Origin: Saccoglossus kowalevskii
Taxonomy: Eukaryota > Hemichordata > Enteropneusta > Harrimaniidae
NCBI RefSeq assembly: GCF_000003605.2
Contig: NW_003112971.1
Coordinates: 64,245-89,683, forward strand
Length of the DNA stretch: 25,439 nt
Direction of reading: 5' to 3'
A model generated the notes under the pieces. It searched no databases, was not told the origin of the DNA, and worked only from the letters and a program-made list of their open reading frames with translations. A program made the translations under genes and the position numbers. Positions 1 to 24,964 of this stretch are shown in pieces. The stretch's first letter is position 1; every line of letters starts with the position of its first letter.

Positions 1-1409
1 GTTAATTTCCTAATTTCAATTTCACATTTGAAAGTGTCTAAGCTGAGATTAAGATTTTGGTATTTGTTAATAAAATAAGTCTTGATGTACTTAAATTTGT
101 GTACATAATCAGGATTTATTAATTTTTTCATCCATTTTAATCGAAGGGCGTCTCTTTTTGTTTTAAGATCAATCAGATTGAGACCGCCATTTCTCACTGT
201 GCTGGTAATAACGTCATACTTAACAATGTGACTACTATTGATCGATATGAATGAAGTGATAATGTTCTTAAACCTGGTTAACAAATTATCTGAGATTGGC
301 GTAACGAATAGTAGGTAATAAAATGACGACGCAACTAGACTGTTAATAACAATCAGTTTTCCTCGCAGAGATAGACGTCGACGTTTCCATTGATTTAACA
401 CATTTTCTGCTTTGTCAATTTTTCTCTTCCAGTTTGACTCTAAAATATTTTCATTAGTATTAGCGATGTTGACACCGAGTATGCTAATTTTGTCATTACT
501 GTAAATTGCAGGTATCGGAGTATCAGTGCGCCCTCTGTTGCTGCCAATCCACAGTCGTGGCCTGGGACACAACAAGTCTGGTCGTCCGATATAATTGAGC
601 TGAGAACATTGCGTAGACGGAACTCCAACATCTTTGAAATAAGTTTGTAATCTACGTTTACAAGCGAGATCGGGCGCCAGCTAGCAATAACACGTTTATC
701 ACAATCTTTCTTTGGGATCAGTGTAATGACGCTCGTGCGTAAACTATGGGGCAATATGTCGTTTTCATAAATGAGATTTGTTATATCCGTGAAATCATCC
801 CAAATGTCCGACCAGAAACATTTATACCACTCTACGGTCAGACCGTCAATACCTGGCGATTTATCGTTTACAATTTTAGAGAGTACCAGACAAAAGTCAA
901 TTTAATTGCATCGTGATCGCTAAAAGGGAATTAAATTATTTTGCTTGAAGTACAGCAGCGTAACTTCTCAGCTGATACCAGACAGTAATCGATTCGGCTT
1001 TGGCATAATTGCTGGTCAATAACCCCCCGCCATGTGAATTCACGCTGAGATGCATGCTGAGCTCTCCAAATAACAATCAAGGATTTTTGTTATAAAAATG
1101 TTTTTAAATAGTCTCTAGAACGATCTTTATAAAACAATATATCAGATTTATCGAGGTCTTGATTTATAACACAATTAAAATCTCCAATTATTATGTTTGG
1201 GCGATCGTTACATAAAAATTGACCAAGGTGTTCATAAAAAGCGTCGTCTTTCTGTCATATTGTTGGGGGCATATACATTAATCAAATTAATATAATTATC
1301 ATCGATATCCAGTGTGACTTGGAGAAGCCTTCCTGGAAAAGTGAGACTCTCACTATAATCTGTTACAGTTATACCGGATGTTTCCGATACAAATATGGTT
1401 TTCCGAATT
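1..1409 (-). pseudogene. Retrotransposon ORF2 (endonuclease and reverse transcriptase), internally deleted and cut by window edge
   Basis: ORF2 of L1/Tx1-like elements nicks the target and reverse-transcribes the element RNA. The C-terminal half of an APE-type endonuclease is readable at about 1400-900: VYAPN, IIIGDFNCV (about 1174-1190), SRIDYCL (about 985-1005) and FSDHDAI (about 901-927). The RT begins at once with KSPGIDGLTVEWYK (about 820-865), so the usual long linker is gone. RT motifs ITLIPKKD, SWRPISLVNVDYKLISK and DQTCCVPG follow (to about 570). The frame then jumps to LWIGSNRG-like sequence (about 555), ISILGVNIAN (about 470-500) and an open C-terminal domain (WKRRRLSLRGKLIVINS, about 350-400; GGLNLIDLK, about 165-190) that runs off the left edge. 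The segment with the RT catalytic aspartates is missing, as is the N-terminal endonuclease half, so the protein cannot work. Confidence 0.85.
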
Positions 1410-2645
1410 ACTTGTGATCAGTTTGGGTCAGTGATGGCATCTTTCGGTTTAAATTTTGTATGTAATTGTTCAATGTTTGGTTTTGGTGCGATTTTTTTCC
1501 TTCGATGACTCTGTGGAGTACCAGGCTCGTTCTCATGAATCATGCTGCCGTTTTTTGGTTACTCTCTTTCTTTGGTCGTCTTTGACAGTTGCTTCATTGT
1601 CTGAAAGGTGGAGGTTGTGAGATGCCAAGTCCGGACGGCTGCAATCATCAGTCTCTTCCGCATTTTCAAACCCGAAATCTTCCGTTTCGTCCATACCGTC
1701 GCTGTCATATTCGTTATTAGGTTTTCTAGCATTCTCATCGCCGGTGTCATTCGTTCTCTTTAAACTTGTCTTCATTGGTGTTCCATTATTTTCCTCAGTA
1801 GATTCGACTTGCTTAACGACTGCTTTCTTTTCCGCATAGTCTCTAACAGAACTATAACAATGACGTGCAATATGACCATTTTCTCCACATTCAATACACT
1901 TGCGATTTTCACAGATTCTCTCTGTATGACCTAATTGTTTACAGATTTTACACATATAATTAGGACAGTCGTGAATAACGTGACTTTCACTTAAACAATT
2001 GTTACATAAAGTGTATGCTGATTGTTATGTAATAAACGAGTGTATGGCCCATTGTCCTCAAACTTGATTGCATAAGGCAGTGACTTAACACTTGCAGGGA
2101 ATTCAACACGAACAAAGCGAGTACCATTTTCAACAGAGGGGGCCTCTCGGTAGTATTTGTGTAACACTGGGCTTCTAATTGTGCATCCAAATTGTTCCAA
2201 ATGGCATGTAATTACTTCGTCCTGAATATAAGCAGGAACGTTGAAAAATGATACTGTCATGAAGTTTCGGCTCACACCATGAACTTCACACTCAACACCA
2301 TTAATAGCAATGCCTTGTTCGAGTAAGAGTTCAACAGACTCGGTAGAAATTTGCAGACTCGGTAGTTATTTGCAAAAAAACTATAATATTAATACATGCT
2401 AACACAGATTCAGCTCTGCATGCTCCGTGTACAGCCTCAATGACATCCAAAGCTTTGAAACTATAATCTACAATGGTTACCGTGTTGTCTCTTGTGGCAT
2501 GTGGTCGCCGAGTGCCTTGAGCACGAGGGCGGCCATAATGGCCTAACCTCTCGTACAGCGCTGGAAGAAAACACTGGTCACAGAAGGCCTTTCCTTGGTA
2601 CCACGAAATAAAAGTAAAAAACGACTTATGGTGGTGGAACAGCAC
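1410..2645 (-). pseudogene. Retrotransposon ORF1 (RRM-like plus three CCHC zinc knuckles), frameshifted
   Basis: This is the nucleic-acid-binding ORF1 protein of the retrotransposon. The first block (2645-2331) starts at an ATG. The second block (2275-1991) contains an RRM-like pair of strands, VSFFNVP and GTRFVRVEF. The third block (about 2020-1533) carries three CX2CX4HX4C knuckles beginning CNNC, CKIC and CIEC, the last two being CKICKQLGHTERIC and CIECGENGHIARHC. Between blocks one and two, about 18 bases containing ACCGAGTCTG are tandemly duplicated (about 2335-2370) and shift the frame. A second one-base shift near 2015 falls within the first knuckle. A further shift near 1533 lets a basic tail (RRKKIAPKPN) run on to a stop near 1410. 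The arrangement resembles the RRM-plus-CCHC ORF1s of Tx1-type elements and ZCCHC3-like host proteins. It is not a working gene. Confidence 0.85.
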
Positions 2646-2730
2646 TACAAATCACTGTGATTAACACGGGATGGCTATCACGTAACACGGTGATCAGCAT
2701 ATGCTGGAGCACCAGTTGAACACGTCCTAC

Positions 2731-2772
2731 TCGGACGAGAACTGCTGTCATCTGAAATGGTTTGGCGTAGGC
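2731..2772 (-). rRNA. 5S rRNA gene, 5' part only (nt 1-42), interrupted by the retrotransposon
   Basis: Read on the minus strand, 2772 to 2731 gives the first 42 bases of a 5S rRNA gene: GCCTAC at the 5' end, CCAAACCATT, then CAGTTCTCGTCCGA. Homology to 5S stops after the CCGA at nt 42, and retrotransposon leader sequence follows at once. The missing 3' part would be expected beyond the element's 3' end, outside the window. The internal promoter boxes (about nt 50-97) are therefore separated from this start. Confidence 0.85.
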
Positions 2773-2870
2773 TGATTATTTGTCAGAATTGGATGTCATT
2801 TAATACTTAGACTGGGTAAAAAATCTTGGGGGAAAAGTGAGCATGTACTGTGGAATAAAAATGTTGATGC
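2773..2870 (-). promoter_or_regulatory. 5S intergenic spacer, unit 1
   Basis: This ~98-bp spacer separates the full-length 5S copy from the interrupted one. Read in 5S direction it starts just past the 3' end with a T5 run suited to RNA polymerase III termination. It ends with TTAAATGACATCC about 30 bases before the next 5S start, where many invertebrate 5S genes carry a TATA-like element. It is clearly related to the spacer at 2994-3090. The promoter role is inferred from position only. Confidence 0.55.
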
Positions 2871-2993
2871 GCCTACGTACTGCACGTGGTATGCCCAGCT
2901 GGTCTCCCATTCAAGTACTAACCACGCCCGATGTAGCTTAACTTCAGTGATCGGACGATAACTGGTGTATTCTGCAATGGTTTGGCTGTGGTC
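2871..2993 (-). rRNA. 5S rRNA gene copy, full length, possibly decayed
   Basis: The minus strand from 2993 to 2871 reads as a complete 5S rRNA of about 120 nt. Diagnostic blocks are TCGTCCGATCACTGAAG, GTTAAGCTACATCGGGC (A box), GGTTAGTACTTGAATGGG (intermediate element and C box), GAGACCAGCTGGGCATACCA and a 3' end GTAGGC. The transcription-factor IIIA-type internal control region looks intact. The 5' end reads GACCAC instead of GCCTAC, giving about two mismatches in helix I against the 3' GTAGGC, plus a one-base insertion near the start. It may therefore be a weakly decayed copy, or the edge of a real cluster. A run of five T lies about 10 nt past the 3' end (2861-2857). A 5S-headed SINE is an alternative, but no tRNA- or LINE-like tail follows. 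Confidence 0.85.
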
Positions 2994-3090
2994 TGACCAT
3001 TCGTCAGAATTTGAAGGCCATTTAATGTTTCGGCTAGGCAAAACATCTCGGGAAAAGGTTAGTATGTATGGTGGAATAAAAATGTTGATA
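2994..3090 (-). promoter_or_regulatory. 5S intergenic spacer, unit 2
   Basis: This 97-bp spacer lies between the 5'-truncated and full-length 5S copies. It shares with the other spacer the T5 run after the 5S 3' end, a GGAATAAAAATGTTGAT block (plus strand), and CAGAATT and CATTTAAT blocks before the next 5S start. Gene plus spacer gives a repeat unit of about 220 bp, a normal size for a compact 5S tandem array. Confidence 0.55.
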
Positions 3091-3172
3091 ATCCTACTGC
3101 ACATGATATTCCCAGCCGGTCTCCCATGCAAGTACTAACCACGCCCGATGTAGCTTAACTTCAGTGATCGGA
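3091..3172 (-). rRNA. 5S rRNA gene copy, 3' part only (about nt 38-120)
   Basis: The minus strand from 3172 to 3091 matches the full-length copy from TCCGATCACTG through the A box, intermediate element and C box to a 3' end GTGCAGTAGGAT. The stretch around GTTAAGCTACATCGGGC is identical to the neighbour, so these are close paralogues. All 5S homology upstream of TCCGA (5' about 37-42 nt) is absent and replaced by unrelated sequence from 3173 on. The break falls at the same place where the retrotransposon entered the first copy. A T5 run follows the 3' end (3082-3078). Confidence 0.8.
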
Positions 3173-3440
3173 TGAGTGACGTTTCCACAATATAGGTCAT
3201 TGTGACGTAATGCAATTTCAGAATATGCATCTCAAAAGGATTGGCCCAAAAATGTTTTTTTTTTTGGCCCAATAATAATTTTTAATTTTGGCATCGCCCC
3301 TGGTGTGAAACCTTGGGGTAAACCTGGTGTAAGGACTTGATTTAGCATAGATGCCTGCTTGTAATAAAAAATGCGGAAAAAAAATTTGAGCACTTATCTA
3401 TCTTCTGCTGGCTGTCTGAGAACAAGAACTGCATTCTTTG
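3173..3440. other. Unassigned sequence upstream of truncated 5S copy
   Basis: No coding signal. The stretch carries a T11 run (about 3255-3265) flanked by direct copies of TTGGCCCAA. By analogy with the left side it could be the 3' end of a second element that entered a 5S gene, but nothing in it identifies a retrotransposon tail. Confidence 0.3.
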
Positions 3441-4550
3441 AAAAACTAGCAGCCTGTTGGATGAGATAGCTCCGCTGTTGTCAATGCACATTTCAATTAA
3501 AGAACTGAAGATATCATCCGAAAATGAACAATGTGTATGGTATTAAAGCAATCGGACTTGTTGTTTTCAAAAAAAAATCAAAAATATAACTTTTTATCAA
3601 AAATACTCATCAAAATAAGATAATTAAAGAACAAAATCATCACGAAATGAACAAATCTGAGAGAGGTCTACCTGTAGTACCTATGTAGTATATATAATAT
3701 CATAGCAATTTAATAAACTTGCGGTTTTTAACAAGAAGTCGAAAATATCACTTTTTACCAAAAATATTCATCAAAATTAGAGAATTAAAGATATCATCAC
3801 GAAATGAACAAATCTGAGAGAGGCCCACTTGTAGTACAACATGTAATATCACTTTTTACCAAAAATGACAAAAATATTCATCCAAATTAGAGAAATGTAG
3901 ATATTATCACAAAATGAACAAATCTGAGAGAGGTCCACCCAAGGTACCTACATAGCAAGTATCAAAGCATTTGGGCTAGCGGTTTTCAAGAAGAAGTCGA
4001 AAATAGCCATTTTTACCAAAAACGACAAAAATATTGGCTATAAATAAGACAATTGAACATATCCACACGAATTGAACAAATCTAAGAGAAGTCCACATGT
4101 AGTACCTACATATGTAATATCAAAGCAATCGGACTTGCAGTTTCTAACAAGAAGTCGAAAATATCACTTTTTACCAAAAGTGACAAAAATATTCATCCAA
4201 ATTAGAGAAATGTAGATATTATCACAAAATGAACAAATCTGAGAGTGGTCCACCCATGCTACCTACAAACCAAGTATCAAAGCATTTGGGCTAGCGGTTT
4301 TCAAGAAGAAGTCGAAAATAGCATTTTTTTACCAAAAACGACAAAAATATTGGCTATAAATAAGACAATTGAACATATCCACACAAATTGAACAAATCTG
4401 AGAGAGAACCACCCAAGGTACCTTCCTAGAATATTTCACAGCTATACAGTTTGTTGTTTTTAAGAAGAAGTCGAAAATGTAAAGTTGACGTCGGCGGCCG
4501 CGAACAATCAGTAATACTACAACCTCCGCTCGACATCGGAGCTAAAATAT
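3441..4550 (+). repeat. Composite repeat element with ~157-bp tandem monomers, long copy
   Basis: The element begins with TAGCAGCC...GAGATAGCTCCG and contains six recognisable monomers. An anchor word AATGAACAAATCTGAGAG recurs at 3649, 3806, 3916, 4074, 4231 and 4390, giving steps of 157, 110, 158, 157 and 159 bp. Each full monomer also carries TATCACTTTTTACCAAAAA and AAGAAGTCGAAAAT. The end has a short GACG/CGG-type simple stretch (4489-4503) and a terminal hairpin (CTCCG, loop, CGGAG) followed by CTAAAA. A unique left flank, ~160-bp core monomers, a microsatellite and a terminal hairpin resemble the Pearl/BIV160-type non-autonomous Helitron-like elements of molluscs. That assignment is inference. 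No ORF is present. Confidence 0.75.
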
Positions 4551-9133: not shown

Positions 9134-10102
9134 CTAATCGAGCAAGAGACCAAGCCAGATCCTTTGACTTTCAGCCTTCAGAAGGTCCTGATCCACTAGG
9201 TGAGTTTCAGTGGCATAGTCTGCTGAAAGGTCGGCCCTTTTAGCCGGTTTGTAGAATGGTTGAAGTTCTTGGCACTTGAGTTCACAATCAAAGGTCTTTG
9301 GGTCATGCTCAGTCCTTGTCTCTAATATCCTTGGTTTTTCCACCTTTGAGCCATCATCATCTTGGAACAGCACACTCACTGTGTCATGACTACCCCCAAT
9401 ACCGGATAGGGTTGCCTCATCATGATCAAAATTATCAAAGGCAGAAATAGTAAACTGAGAACTGCCAAAATGGCTTGGGAAGGGAACCTCATCACTACTC
9501 GACTCAACTATAAATCTACCCATATCATAGCGATAACGCTGTTCATAACTAATGCATAGCCCATATCTGTTGAAGCTCGTTATCAAAGTAGCACTCTTGC
9601 ATGCATCATAAATTGCCTGACTATTCATTATATGCAAATGTGTCCTTTTCCTACCAAGGTGAAGAATATAATACAAAGTTTGAGTTAGACCTTGCACTTA
9701 CATTTTTGTTCAGAAACCCCTACACCACAGTCATTCTCATCATCAGGGAAATCAGCTACACCCTTAGCTAACCTTTTTGAAGCAATAGCAAATGAATCAA
9801 TGTCAAAGTTATACAATACAGCAAAGAACTTCAGGAGTGGCTCTGGTACAACCATATTTGCAGTTCCAGTTTCTAAGTCATTTGCATCACAGAACCTGTC
9901 TTGTAAATCAAAATCTAATTCTAACAGACATTGTCTTATTGTCTCAGCACACTGTCGAATAGGGTCCGTGCTGCGAATAGTTTCTGCAAGATTTTCTGCT
10001 GTTACACTCCTACTGAAAAACATCTGAGATCTATTGACTTGTTTTGGCTGAGACAAGGAAATCTCAGAACCAAAGTGTTCAGTTAGAAGAACCTTTACTT
10101 CA
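9134..10102 (-). pseudogene. Academ-like protein, N-central part
   Basis: Two overlapping frames continue the protein. The first (to 9685) contains KVLLTEHFG, NRSQMFFSRSV and an acidic tail DDENDCGVG. The second (9697-9134) contains GRKRTHLHIMNSQAIYDACK, LITSFNRYGLCISYEQ and an acidic, conserved-looking stretch FDNFDHDEATLSG with GGSHDTVSVLFQDDD. The switch between frames occurs at 9685-9697 around CKCKV and is a one-base shift. The segment ends at a frameshift near 9125. No enzymatic motif is recognised here; the assignment rests on colinearity with the parts on both sides. Confidence 0.6.
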
Positions 10103-22611: not shown

Positions 22612-24204
22612 CTACAAAGTGAAATATGTAAATATTAATATGTGAAAATAAAATTATATTAATCAGAGAAAACCAGACGGAAATGAGTCAGTCATTTTGA
22701 AACAAAACTTGAAATGAACATGATTATGAAATTTGACCTGATGCACAATGTAGCCGACTGCAAAATTTGGCATTTTGAATCTAATTATGTTTCTATTATG
22801 TCTAATGTACCAAGGTTGAACAATTTTGATGAATTTAAATGGTTGCCAATCATCATACGAATACATATGAATATATATATATATAATATATTGAACAGGA
22901 TTGGTCAAGACATGCAAAATATGATCCTGGAAAAACATTCATTAAAACAAAAATGGCCACGCATTATTCATTTTCAATCCAATCTGAAAATATGTGTGTG
23001 ACATAATGTATGATGTTTATTTAAAGTTTGAACATAATTGATACAACAGCAATATGGCTCTGAAAGAGCAGTCATTAAAACAAAAAATCCCTGTCTCCCA
23101 GTCATAATTTTTGAAACCAAGCTGAAACATAAAATGAAATGGATTAAGATCCCATTGAGCCAAATATATGTAAGAACATATAGAACACTTTTTTTTGAAA
23201 CTCAAATTATTATCCAACTCAGGAGACCACCAGTGGTGGTCTTGCAGTTAGAAAGTGCTCAAGGTTCTTTGTGTAATAAGATGTTTGTATGAAAAGGATT
23301 TTCTCCACACAAAAATGCCAAATTCAACCAAATTTTGTGATTTAATGTTACCCAAACAGGTTTTTTGGCTGTAGAAGTTTGGTATTCTTTCCTGAGTTTG
23401 TAAGAATTTAAAACAAGCAGCCAGTTGGCTGAGATAGCTCCGATGTTAGAAATGCACATTTCAATTAAAGAACAGAAGACATCATTAGAAAATGAACAAT
23501 ATGTATAGTATCAAAGCAATGGGACTTGCTGTTTTCAACAAGAATTCAAAAATATCACTTTTCACCAAAAATGACAAAAACAATCATCAAAAATAGATAA
23601 TTGAAGATAACACCACGAAATTAACAAATCTGAAAGAGGTCAACATGTTTACCTATATATGTAATATGAAAGCAATTGGACTTGTAGTTTTTAACAAGAA
23701 GTCAAAAATATCACTTTTTACCAAAAATGACAAAAATATTCACCAATATTAGAGAATTAAAGATATCATTACAAAATGAACAAATCCGAGAGAGGTCCAC
23801 ATATAGTACATATATATGTAATATCAAAGCAATTACACTTTTTACCAAAAATGACAAAAATATTCACCAAAATTAGAGAATTGAAGATATCACTACAAAA
23901 TGAACAAACCTAAGAGAGGTCCACCCAAAGTACATATACACCAAGTATCAAAGCATTCATGCTTGTAGTTTTCAAGAAGAAGTCGAAAAAGTAAAACATT
24001 GACACGGACGACAGACAATCACTCATATGATAAGCTCTGCTCGACAAAGTCGACAGTAGAGCCAAAAAACTGTTTCTCAACATGTTTCTAATTAGATGTA
24101 CATACTAAGATTTGTTTTGGATATACAGATAAAACAATATATTTGACTATGATTTAGAGTGGATTAAGCCATAGTAATCATTAGTACTTCATGAAAATAC
24201 CTAC
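22612..24204 (-). other. Nuclear receptor intron (phase 1), containing a composite repeat
   Basis: The donor is G|GTAGGT at 24205/24204 and the acceptor TTTGTAG at 22612. The split codon G+AT restores Asp in the DRP motif, so the junction is well supported. The intron is 1,593 bp and holds the short composite repeat (about 23410-24065) in its donor-proximal part. The rest is AT-rich with a TA repeat near 22871-22888. Confidence 0.85.
23410..24065 (+). repeat. Composite repeat element with ~156-bp monomers, short copy in receptor intron
   Basis: It begins AAAACAAGCAGCC...GAGATAGCTCCG like the copy at 3441. Anchor words (GAACAAATC-like) lie at 23494, 23622, 23778 and 23902, giving steps of 128, 156 and 124. 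It ends with an ACGG-type stretch and a hairpin (GCTCT, inner CTCGAC/GTCGAC, AGAGC) near 24032-24061. It lies on the same strand as the left copy, opposite to the receptor gene, and has fewer monomers. Confidence 0.75.
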
Positions 24205-24964
24205 CAGATGAAAGAATTGTTGCTGCCTCCAGCAGTGAAAATTCAGCCCGACTCAGATGAAAAGAATTTATACTTCGAGTGAAATTAAGTGTTTTTTGAG
24301 CAGAGTTAAAAAATCCAGAATAAAGCATGATATCCAAGTTCCATTCAATTCCAACAATGTCATCAACGACACAGTTTTTCTCAGGCAGAAAGGTTTCTCC
24401 CATACGAAACATCAAGACTTCCAATATTGCAGCTTTTATAAGCACAGCTTGGTCTTCATAGTCCAAATATCTAAATTCCGGTAATGTTTTTGCAAACTGC
24501 ACTGTCTGTCGTATAACAACCCCAAGTACAGCCATATTAAACACAATGAGTTCACTTTTATCAAAGCATGGTAGCATAGGTGGCATGCCACCTCCAAAGT
24601 TTGGCAACGCTGCAGCCCCTTGAACTTGACTTTGTGAGTTTTCCCCAAACTGACATGGATATTCGTCCGTATCAAGTTTCTCTTGTTTGATCTCAACATT
24701 GCTTAAATTTGGTCCCTGGCTCTGTGGATTTGGAAATTGGAAATCAGGCATTGTGCTGCTGAATGTTTTCCAAACATCTGGCAATGGAGGAAGCTTTGTT
24801 TTCATACTATCAGGCACTAGGCAACTGTTCTCCGGCTGCTCTGATTTACAAAACATGTTCTTGTCCATTTCTTCTAAATTCATTAAAGGTGGTGGCCCAT
24901 TTTTTGCAGCCATCTTGAAAAAATCTGAAATACCCTTCGCGACTTGCTGCAGCCTTTCAGATGT
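24205..24964 (-). CDS. Nuclear receptor, penultimate coding exon (hinge and first part of LBD), NR1-like
   Basis: Preceded by a pyrimidine tract and acceptor (TTTTCTGTAG, 24965-24974), the exon is open in frame from its first codon (TSERLQQVAKGISDFFK) and is 760 bp long, leaving one base for the next exon. About 120 residues of hinge, poor in order and rich in Pro and Gln, include a sumoylation-type motif VEIKQEKLD. The ligand-binding-domain signature follows: TVQFAKTLPEFRYL, DYEDQAVLIKAAILEVLMFR, then FLPEKNCVVDD and HLSRAEFSLLEAATILSS. The FAK...F..L...DQ..L pattern is the family signature, and its Lys is the coactivator clamp partner of the helix-12 Glu. Similarity is to subfamily 1 (LXR/FXR/E75-like); I cannot fix the orthologue. 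The DNA-binding domain is not in the window. The ATG at 24913 (AAGATGG) has a strong context and could start a shorter isoform. Confidence 0.9.

Follow-up and report, generated by a model that had tools for sequence, protein, structure and literature searches.

The window, by which we mean the whole 25,439-nt stretch of Saccoglossus kowalevskii DNA analysed here, contains a retrotransposon joined to the remains of a 5S rRNA gene. On the minus strand, positions 2772-2731 correspond to nt 1-42 of a diverged 5S gene, and a decayed retrotransposon follows directly (Table 1). An Rfam search places 5S on the same strand at 2874-2993 (69 bits) and 3091-3205 (43.5 bits), and TRF reports a 217-bp period across 2731-3176. 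Elsewhere in the window, 24164-24964 of the minus strand hold an exon encoding the ligand-binding domain of a nuclear hormone receptor (Pfam PF00104; best PDB match NR1D2); as such receptors are animal genes, the exon points to an animal host.

Table 1. Features of the retrotransposon and the adjoining 5S units in the window.
Feature	Positions	Strand	Basis
5′ leader, starting (GA)GTAGGACG at the 5S junction	2537..2730	-	Alignment of five junctions
ORF1 before the zinc knuckles, RRM-like by eye	2033..2359	-	Read by eye; no Pfam match
ORF1 zinc-knuckle part, three CCHC by eye	1533..2024	-	Pfam weakly supports two
Apurinic-type endonuclease remnant, interrupted, in two frames	1093..1417	-	NVYAPN and GDFN in translation
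Reverse transcriptase, N-terminal part	555..901	-	Pfam RVT_1, E 1.4e-7
Region after the reverse transcriptase core; element continues into the assembly gap	3..554	-	Comparison with the C2313 copy
5S, first 42 nt, cut at the insertion point	2731..2772	-	88% to a host unit; array homology stops
Neighbouring 5S unit, diverged	2874..2993	-	Rfam RF00001, 69 bits
Second neighbouring 5S unit, cut at about own nt 35	3091..3176	-	Rfam; array homology ends at 3176

The element reads leftward from the 5S junction. Its leader start, (GA)GTAGGACG, is the counterpart of AAGATGGACG in the four other 5S-joined copies described below. The likely ORF1 start codon lies at 2536-2534 (minus strand), and the frame is broken between there and 2359. 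The part of ORF1 before the zinc knuckles gave no Pfam match; within the zinc-knuckle part, zf-CCHC (E 6e-4) and zf-CCHC_2 (E 0.005) both score below the curated cut-off. NVYAPN and GDFN, which we take to be apurinic-type endonuclease motifs, occur in two broken endonuclease pieces, neither of which has a Pfam match. Searched against the PDB, the reverse transcriptase piece matches five sequences at E up to 0.1: four are named LINE-1 ORF2p (1.5e-13 to 1.7e-13) and the fifth is 8c8j, an RNA-directed DNA polymerase (1.1e-13). The piece is thus closest to LINE-1 ORF2p, four of the five matches being human LINE-1, as in an element of the L1 superfamily. The catalytic core of the enzyme is missing at about 554, where a related copy on another contig (C2313) carries RVT_1 sequence between the two corresponding pieces. 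Because its frames are broken and the catalytic part of the reverse transcriptase is gone, the window copy is dead. A run of N lies directly left of the window, and the 3′ end of the element and its 3′ flank fall in this gap. The motif QTCCVPG resembles a Tx1 hallmark, and a Tx1 label is likely.

We searched the host assembly (572 Mb), in which the window is C691:64245-89683. With window 2646-3210 as the query there were at least 317 matches (37 of 370 candidates scored), and the fetched loci contain tandem 5S units of ~216 bp. Agreement among 453 distinct aligned 5S stretches averages 95% per column, where one unit may be counted twice if loci overlap. Against one host array unit, 2731-2772 is 88% alike to 5S nt 1-43. 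We number by the host's own consensus, which is the Rfam model plus one base, so that own nt 41-43 are standard nt 40-42; the window copy counts 42 nt, against own nt 43, because it is without one base. The 5S matches in the arrays score 50.8-96.1 bits (Rfam; 46 matches at three loci); the 69-bit copy of the window is inside this range, and the truncated 43.5-bit copy is below it. Judged by these alignments, the 5S copies of the window are a diverged, short relic of the host ~216-bp array. The first-pass annotation had proposed that the target was a tandem 5S unit, and the two neighbouring Rfam matches, the TRF period and the host arrays bear this out. The host arrays themselves look heterogeneous: on C1979, two-unit stretches are ~84-93% alike to the unit pair of another contig.

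Homology between the window and the host arrays stops at the junction. Across 30 loci, 222 HSPs end at 2731, 26 at 2734 and 9 at 2733, among the 15 commonest end positions, which together comprise 297 HSPs. At the far side of the relic, the Rfam match to the second unit reaches 3205, but homology to the host arrays stops at 3176, at about 5S nt 35. We considered 3176 as the 3′ junction of a second insertion and rejected it: there is no join of an A-rich tail to CAGTTCTC, and since 3177-3420 is a different, unrelated dispersed repeat with 22 further genome matches, 3176 marks no second insertion of the element. Most matches of this repeat fall short of 3177 by some 40-90 nt.

The junction in the window is one of five. 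A genome search with the leader and ORF1 found, besides the window, copies on C93 and C1979; those on C404 and C3607 were found through a 17-base junction pattern, and that on C2313 through its reverse transcriptase. At two mismatches the 17-base pattern is not significant (33 matches versus 44 for the reversed control), and we used only matches with no or one mismatch (three, all on 5S contigs), together with their context. The five 5′ ends of the window, C404, C1979, C3607 and C2313 join 5S at one site. The last 5S base is own nt 41-43, which is ambiguous because the four other copies read CC-A-AGATGGACG where 5S reads CC-G-A-TCACTG. In C404 and C1979, CTCGTCC is followed by AAGATGGACG, and C2313 is likewise with one extra G; C3607 has CTCATCC and then AAGATGGACG; in the window CTCGTCC is followed by GAGTAGGACG, and in intact 5S by GATCACTG. 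The initial claim that the element begins exactly after 5S nt 42 therefore needs loosening: a junction inside the gene at nt 42, with no overlap, stands, and its position is ambiguous by 2 nt.

Although the ORF1 of the C1979 copy is only 66% alike to that of the window, its junction with a 5S array lies at the identical point. Over the first 520 nt of the element, C404 and C3607 agree at 513/520 positions, C404 and C1979 at 517/521, and C3607 and C1979 at 512/521; over the upstream 300 bp of 5S array the same pairs agree at 267/300, 276/303 and 253/302. The elements are thus 98-99% alike and their 5S flanks ~84-91%. Since the flanks differ far more than the elements, the three look like insertions in different 5S units, and it follows that the 5S stretch is target and not element. 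Used as a query for this second family, the leader and ORF1 start of C404 returned three copies at 99-100%, all three of which abut 5S arrays.

Next in that search came C4406 at 77%, then lower matches on C4002, C1531 and C1131. The C4406 copy has a complete 5′ end, with a leader 84% alike over 63 nt, and directly upstream of it is satellite DNA and not 5S, only GTCC being in common. (A satellite-like repeat of ~157 bp also occurs in the window, at 3845-4423 and 23499-23938, and is of the same kind as that directly upstream of the C4406 copy.) Of the complete 5′ ends read, five of six are therefore joined to 5S at own nt 41-43, C4406 being the exception. The copy closest to that of the window, on C93 (85-93% in three matching stretches), is not at 5S. 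It is without the first 51 nt of the leader and ends inside the endonuclease; considered as a counter-example to 5S specificity, a fragment cut at both ends says little. Near it lies a stretch resembling tRNA-Val by eye, and ARAGORN called no tRNA in the two fetched loci related to C93 (L055 and L056).

At the 3′ side, three ends on C2313 have an A-rich tail followed by 5S from own nt 28 (ACCAGTTTTCATCCG), 30 (CAGTTCGCGTCCG) and 30 (CAGTTCTCGTCCG). The first-pass annotation had guessed that 5S would resume at about nt 38-43, and the three ends place the re-entry further upstream. With the 5′ junction at 41-43 and re-entry at 28-30, the target duplication is ~12-14 bp, or up to 16 bp if the A at nt 28 belongs to 5S and not to the tail. 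On the same contig, a 5′ junction at 3773 and a 3′ junction at 9328 bracket one stretch, which shows both copies of the duplication, CAGTTCTCGGTCC and CAGTTCGCGTCC. A reverse transcriptase piece within it (5S_C2313B5, C2313:5788-7001) groups with LINEs not seen at RNA genes; there is probably a second LINE inside this insertion, so that two insertions may have recombined at this locus. The assembly shows directly the 5′ and 3′ junctions, the 5S units that continue past both, the A-rich tails and the duplication.

Part of the group shares a conserved hairpin before the tail. In the last ~50 nt of one C2313 element (C2313A) it has 10 bp and a folding energy of -15 kcal/mol (z -5.1); it is strong also in C343 (z -4.7) and C1497 (z -5.4) and weaker in C3746 (z -2.5), and a similar-looking end, C2313C, folds no better than chance (z -0.85). 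A genome-wide search with the 31-base hairpin pattern at up to three mismatches gave four matches, on C2313 (5S), C1433 (decayed 5S), C1497 and C343, against none for the reversed control; the other two C2313 3′ ends do not match it. The C1433 copy is 80% alike in the 3′ region, and a decayed 5S (nt 62-102, 85%) lies 26 nt after its hairpin.

Other members of the group end in or near tRNA genes. On C1497 the tail re-enters tRNA-Leu(TAA) at gene nt 25, with intact tRNA-Leu genes on both sides. On C343 the tail is followed by TGGTTAGGACATTGCGTTGTGGTCGC, which by eye we take to be tRNA-His from about nt 16; neither ARAGORN nor Rfam called this truncated gene. The changed form of the hairpin on C3746 lies ~100 bp upstream of tRNA-Arg(ACG), and the C1852 copy is within a tRNA-Val array, without a readable 3′ end. 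Among seven 3′ ends of the group, three are thus in 5S at own nt 28-30, one is beside a decayed 5S, two are in tRNA genes and one is ~100 bp upstream of tRNA-Arg. A further 3′-end match lies on C304; the counts given here, 5′ and 3′, cover the ends that were read.

A reverse transcriptase search returned 143 matches, and loci were taken for the best 20. The in-genome tree comprises 19 of these 20 (three are pieces of the C2313 contig), the window and C1433; it is built from gapped, query-anchored pieces and is midpoint-rooted, with modest support at key nodes. In it, the copies inserted in 5S and those in tRNA genes fall into a single group. The tRNA copies C343, C1497 and C1852 stand together at 0.999 and nest within the 5S copies, on nodes of only 0.69-0.82. 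Three of the 19 loci hold 5S, three a called tRNA, two U1 and four U5, two of the latter just below the Rfam cut-off; ARAGORN and Rfam call no RNA gene at the remaining 7, C343 among them.

The U1- and U5-inserted elements, for which the junction evidence is from 3′ sides, stand further out in the tree than the 5S/tRNA group. The C3935 element ends in the tail CCTAAAACAAAAATA, after which U1 begins at nt 37-38; the U1 part aligns to intact U1 over 129 nt with one mismatch. A search in which 40 of 109 candidates were scored placed a second instance of this join at C876:342-602, on the margin of a U1 array spaced at ~790 bp; as the two joins are identical over 261 nt, they could be one locus assembled twice. 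A different C876 copy is joined to the U1 upstream region and has a different, truncated 3′ join.

In U5, the tails on C2012 and C191 are followed by TCGCCTTTTACTAAAG, which we take to be loop I. LINE 3′ ends on C2012, C191 and C3795 run into loop I within U5 arrays. We searched with a query of the element's last 271 nt plus 40 nt of U5, for which 40 matches were scored of 57 candidates: 5 cover the whole query, 7 combine the element's last 26 nt with U5, and the other 28 start at the junction and cover U5 alone. Among the matches listed, all 12 that hold the element's end continue into U5, on three contigs; some of these joins may be copies made by array duplication. The U5 genes score 40.6, 40.6, 39.8 and 36.1 bits against an Rfam cut-off of 40, as expected because the start of the gene is cut away. 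Long open ORF2 frames occur in some of these U5 copies; in one, ORF2 stays open for at least 914 aa within the sequence fetched and is closest to LINE-1 ORF2p. The reverse transcriptase of the U5-inserted relative matches LINE-1 ORF2p at E 5e-54 versus R2 at E 6e-18.

We conclude that the window very probably holds an old, dead non-LTR retrotransposon of the L1 superfamily, probably with an apurinic-type endonuclease, of a kind that inserts at one site in tandem 5S genes. Site-specific insertion into 5S had been claimed at the outset, and five 5′ junctions and three clean 3′ junctions support it. LINEs insert by target-primed reverse transcription (TPRT), and the junctions suggest how this would proceed here. 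The ORF2 endonuclease would nick the 5S antisense strand at about own nt 29/30 (standard 28/29), and the freed 3′ end would prime reverse transcription, starting at the A-rich tail of the element RNA. In some copies this tail comes after the conserved hairpin, to which we would ascribe a role in this step. The sense strand would be cut ~12-14 nt further on, at own nt 41-43, and full-length cDNA joined there. The predicted product is 5S from nt 1 to 41-43, the element, an A-rich tail and 5S from nt 28-30 on; we infer the order of the nicks and direct recognition of the DNA by the endonuclease. The internal promoter of 5S lies at own nt ~50 onwards. An insertion leaves it on the 3′ side of the element, so that an interrupted gene, though it keeps its promoter, is not expected to yield 5S RNA.

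Could the 5S stretch instead be part of the element, a 5S-derived promoter head as in 5S-headed SINEs? Such a head would account for a clean join that keeps its position in all five 5S-joined copies. However, 5S spacer and further 5S units continue upstream, the flanks differ by ~9-16% between copies where the elements differ by ~1-2%, 5S resumes at the 3′ ends with a duplication, and C4406 has a 5′ end without the 5S stretch; among the six complete 5′ ends read, none outside a 5S array still carries 5S nt 1-42. The continuing arrays, and flanks ~84-91% alike beside elements 98-99% alike, exclude the possibility, raised with the original claim, that 5S nt 1-42 belong to the element, and we regard a promoter head as highly improbable. 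A chance rearrangement between a LINE and the 5S relic would suit the decayed state of the window copy and its missing 3′ side, but the same junction is found at four other places in the genome with related leaders. Because the junction recurs, chance is excluded as an explanation, and we give it next to no credence.

The specificity for 5S is not absolute in the group, as C4406, C93 and the tRNA relatives indicate. The expectation that copies would have 5S at their flanks is borne out at five of the six complete 5′ ends and not at C4406, the C93 fragment or the two relatives with the same 3′ hairpin in tRNA genes. The tRNA cases invite a different account, in which host factors tether the element to genes of RNA polymerase III, by analogy with the proposed tethering of TRE5-A by TFIIIB, and 5S sequence itself is not recognized. 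Relatives with the same 3′ hairpin do end in tRNA-Leu and a tRNA-His-like gene, and tRNA genes are also near C3746 and C1852. Against tethering, the positions inside 5S are fixed to a few nucleotides at both ends, tethered elements reportedly land away from the gene (PMC5911963, PMC3706591), and a more distant relative re-enters U1, described as Pol II-transcribed (PMC11075544), at one place. We therefore consider tethering unlikely and prefer site-specific insertion into 5S.

It is more likely than not that the spread of one LINE lineage in this genome went by changes of target among multicopy small-RNA genes: elements with the same 3′ hairpin occupy fixed sites in 5S, tRNA-Leu(TAA) and a tRNA-His-like gene, and deeper relatives, ORF2 still being open over a long stretch in some, occupy fixed sites in U1 and U5 loop I. 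In 5S, U1 and both tRNAs, though not in U5, a GTT follows the 3′ junction at a distance of 1-4 nt, a likeness noticed post hoc; the change of target may have gone through this short shared sequence next to the nick.

We conclude that the window element belongs to an already known kind, the 5S-specific LINEs; related elements in different small-RNA genes of one genome are the more novel part. By 2015, the transposons reported in snRNA genes were only Keno and Utopia (U2), Dada-U1 and Dada-U6, according to PMC4640811, and LINEs in U1 and U5 would be new if that statement still holds. Among the titles and abstracts listed by searches of open-licence literature, Repbase apart, none mentions a LINE in U1 or U5. 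One lineage in 5S and tRNA, and further out U1 and U5, is a natural series within one genome, which bears on how LINE endonucleases gain, keep and change their targets. With insertion ends defined to a few nucleotides and a duplication of ~12-14 bp, the site is directly testable.

Among known systems, Mutsu is the name of non-LTR retrotransposons that reside in the 5S rRNA genes of zebrafish (Kojima and Fujiwara 2004, cited in PMC11202950 and PMC3706591), with two ORFs and a length given as about 5.5 kb (PMC11202950). Compared by description only, the element here is alike in being a non-LTR retrotransposon with two ORFs in 5S rRNA genes; the host of Mutsu is the zebrafish, whereas ours is another animal with its own 5S. 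In Tribolium freemani, Jockey-like elements are reported to interrupt the 5S arrays regularly, a further case of ~5-kb LINEs within invertebrate 5S arrays (PMC11202950). Those elements are assigned to Jockey in that report, whereas the reverse transcriptase here matches LINE-1 ORF2p.

Keno, with an apurinic-type endonuclease, and Utopia, with a restriction-like endonuclease, are both described in U2 snRNA genes and are likewise LINEs with a fixed site in a multicopy small-RNA gene (PMC4640811). Keno probably has the same type of endonuclease as the element here; the target of both is U2, whereas here it is 5S and, in relatives, tRNA, U1 and U5. TRE5-A and other Dictyostelium LINEs are reported to sit near Pol III genes, and TRE5-A resembles our element as an L1-clade LINE associated with such genes, including extrachromosomal 5S (PMC5911963). 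It lands tens of bp upstream of the gene by the same account, whereas the element here is inside the gene at a fixed place. The Dada superfamily shows the same pattern of related families in different small-RNA genes: its members are described from various tRNA, 5S and snRNA genes, and their targets changed from one sequence to another that resembles it (PMC8869645). Dada is a DNA transposon with duplications reported as 6-7 bp (PMC8869645), whereas the element here is a LINE with an A-rich tail and a duplication of ~12-14 bp.
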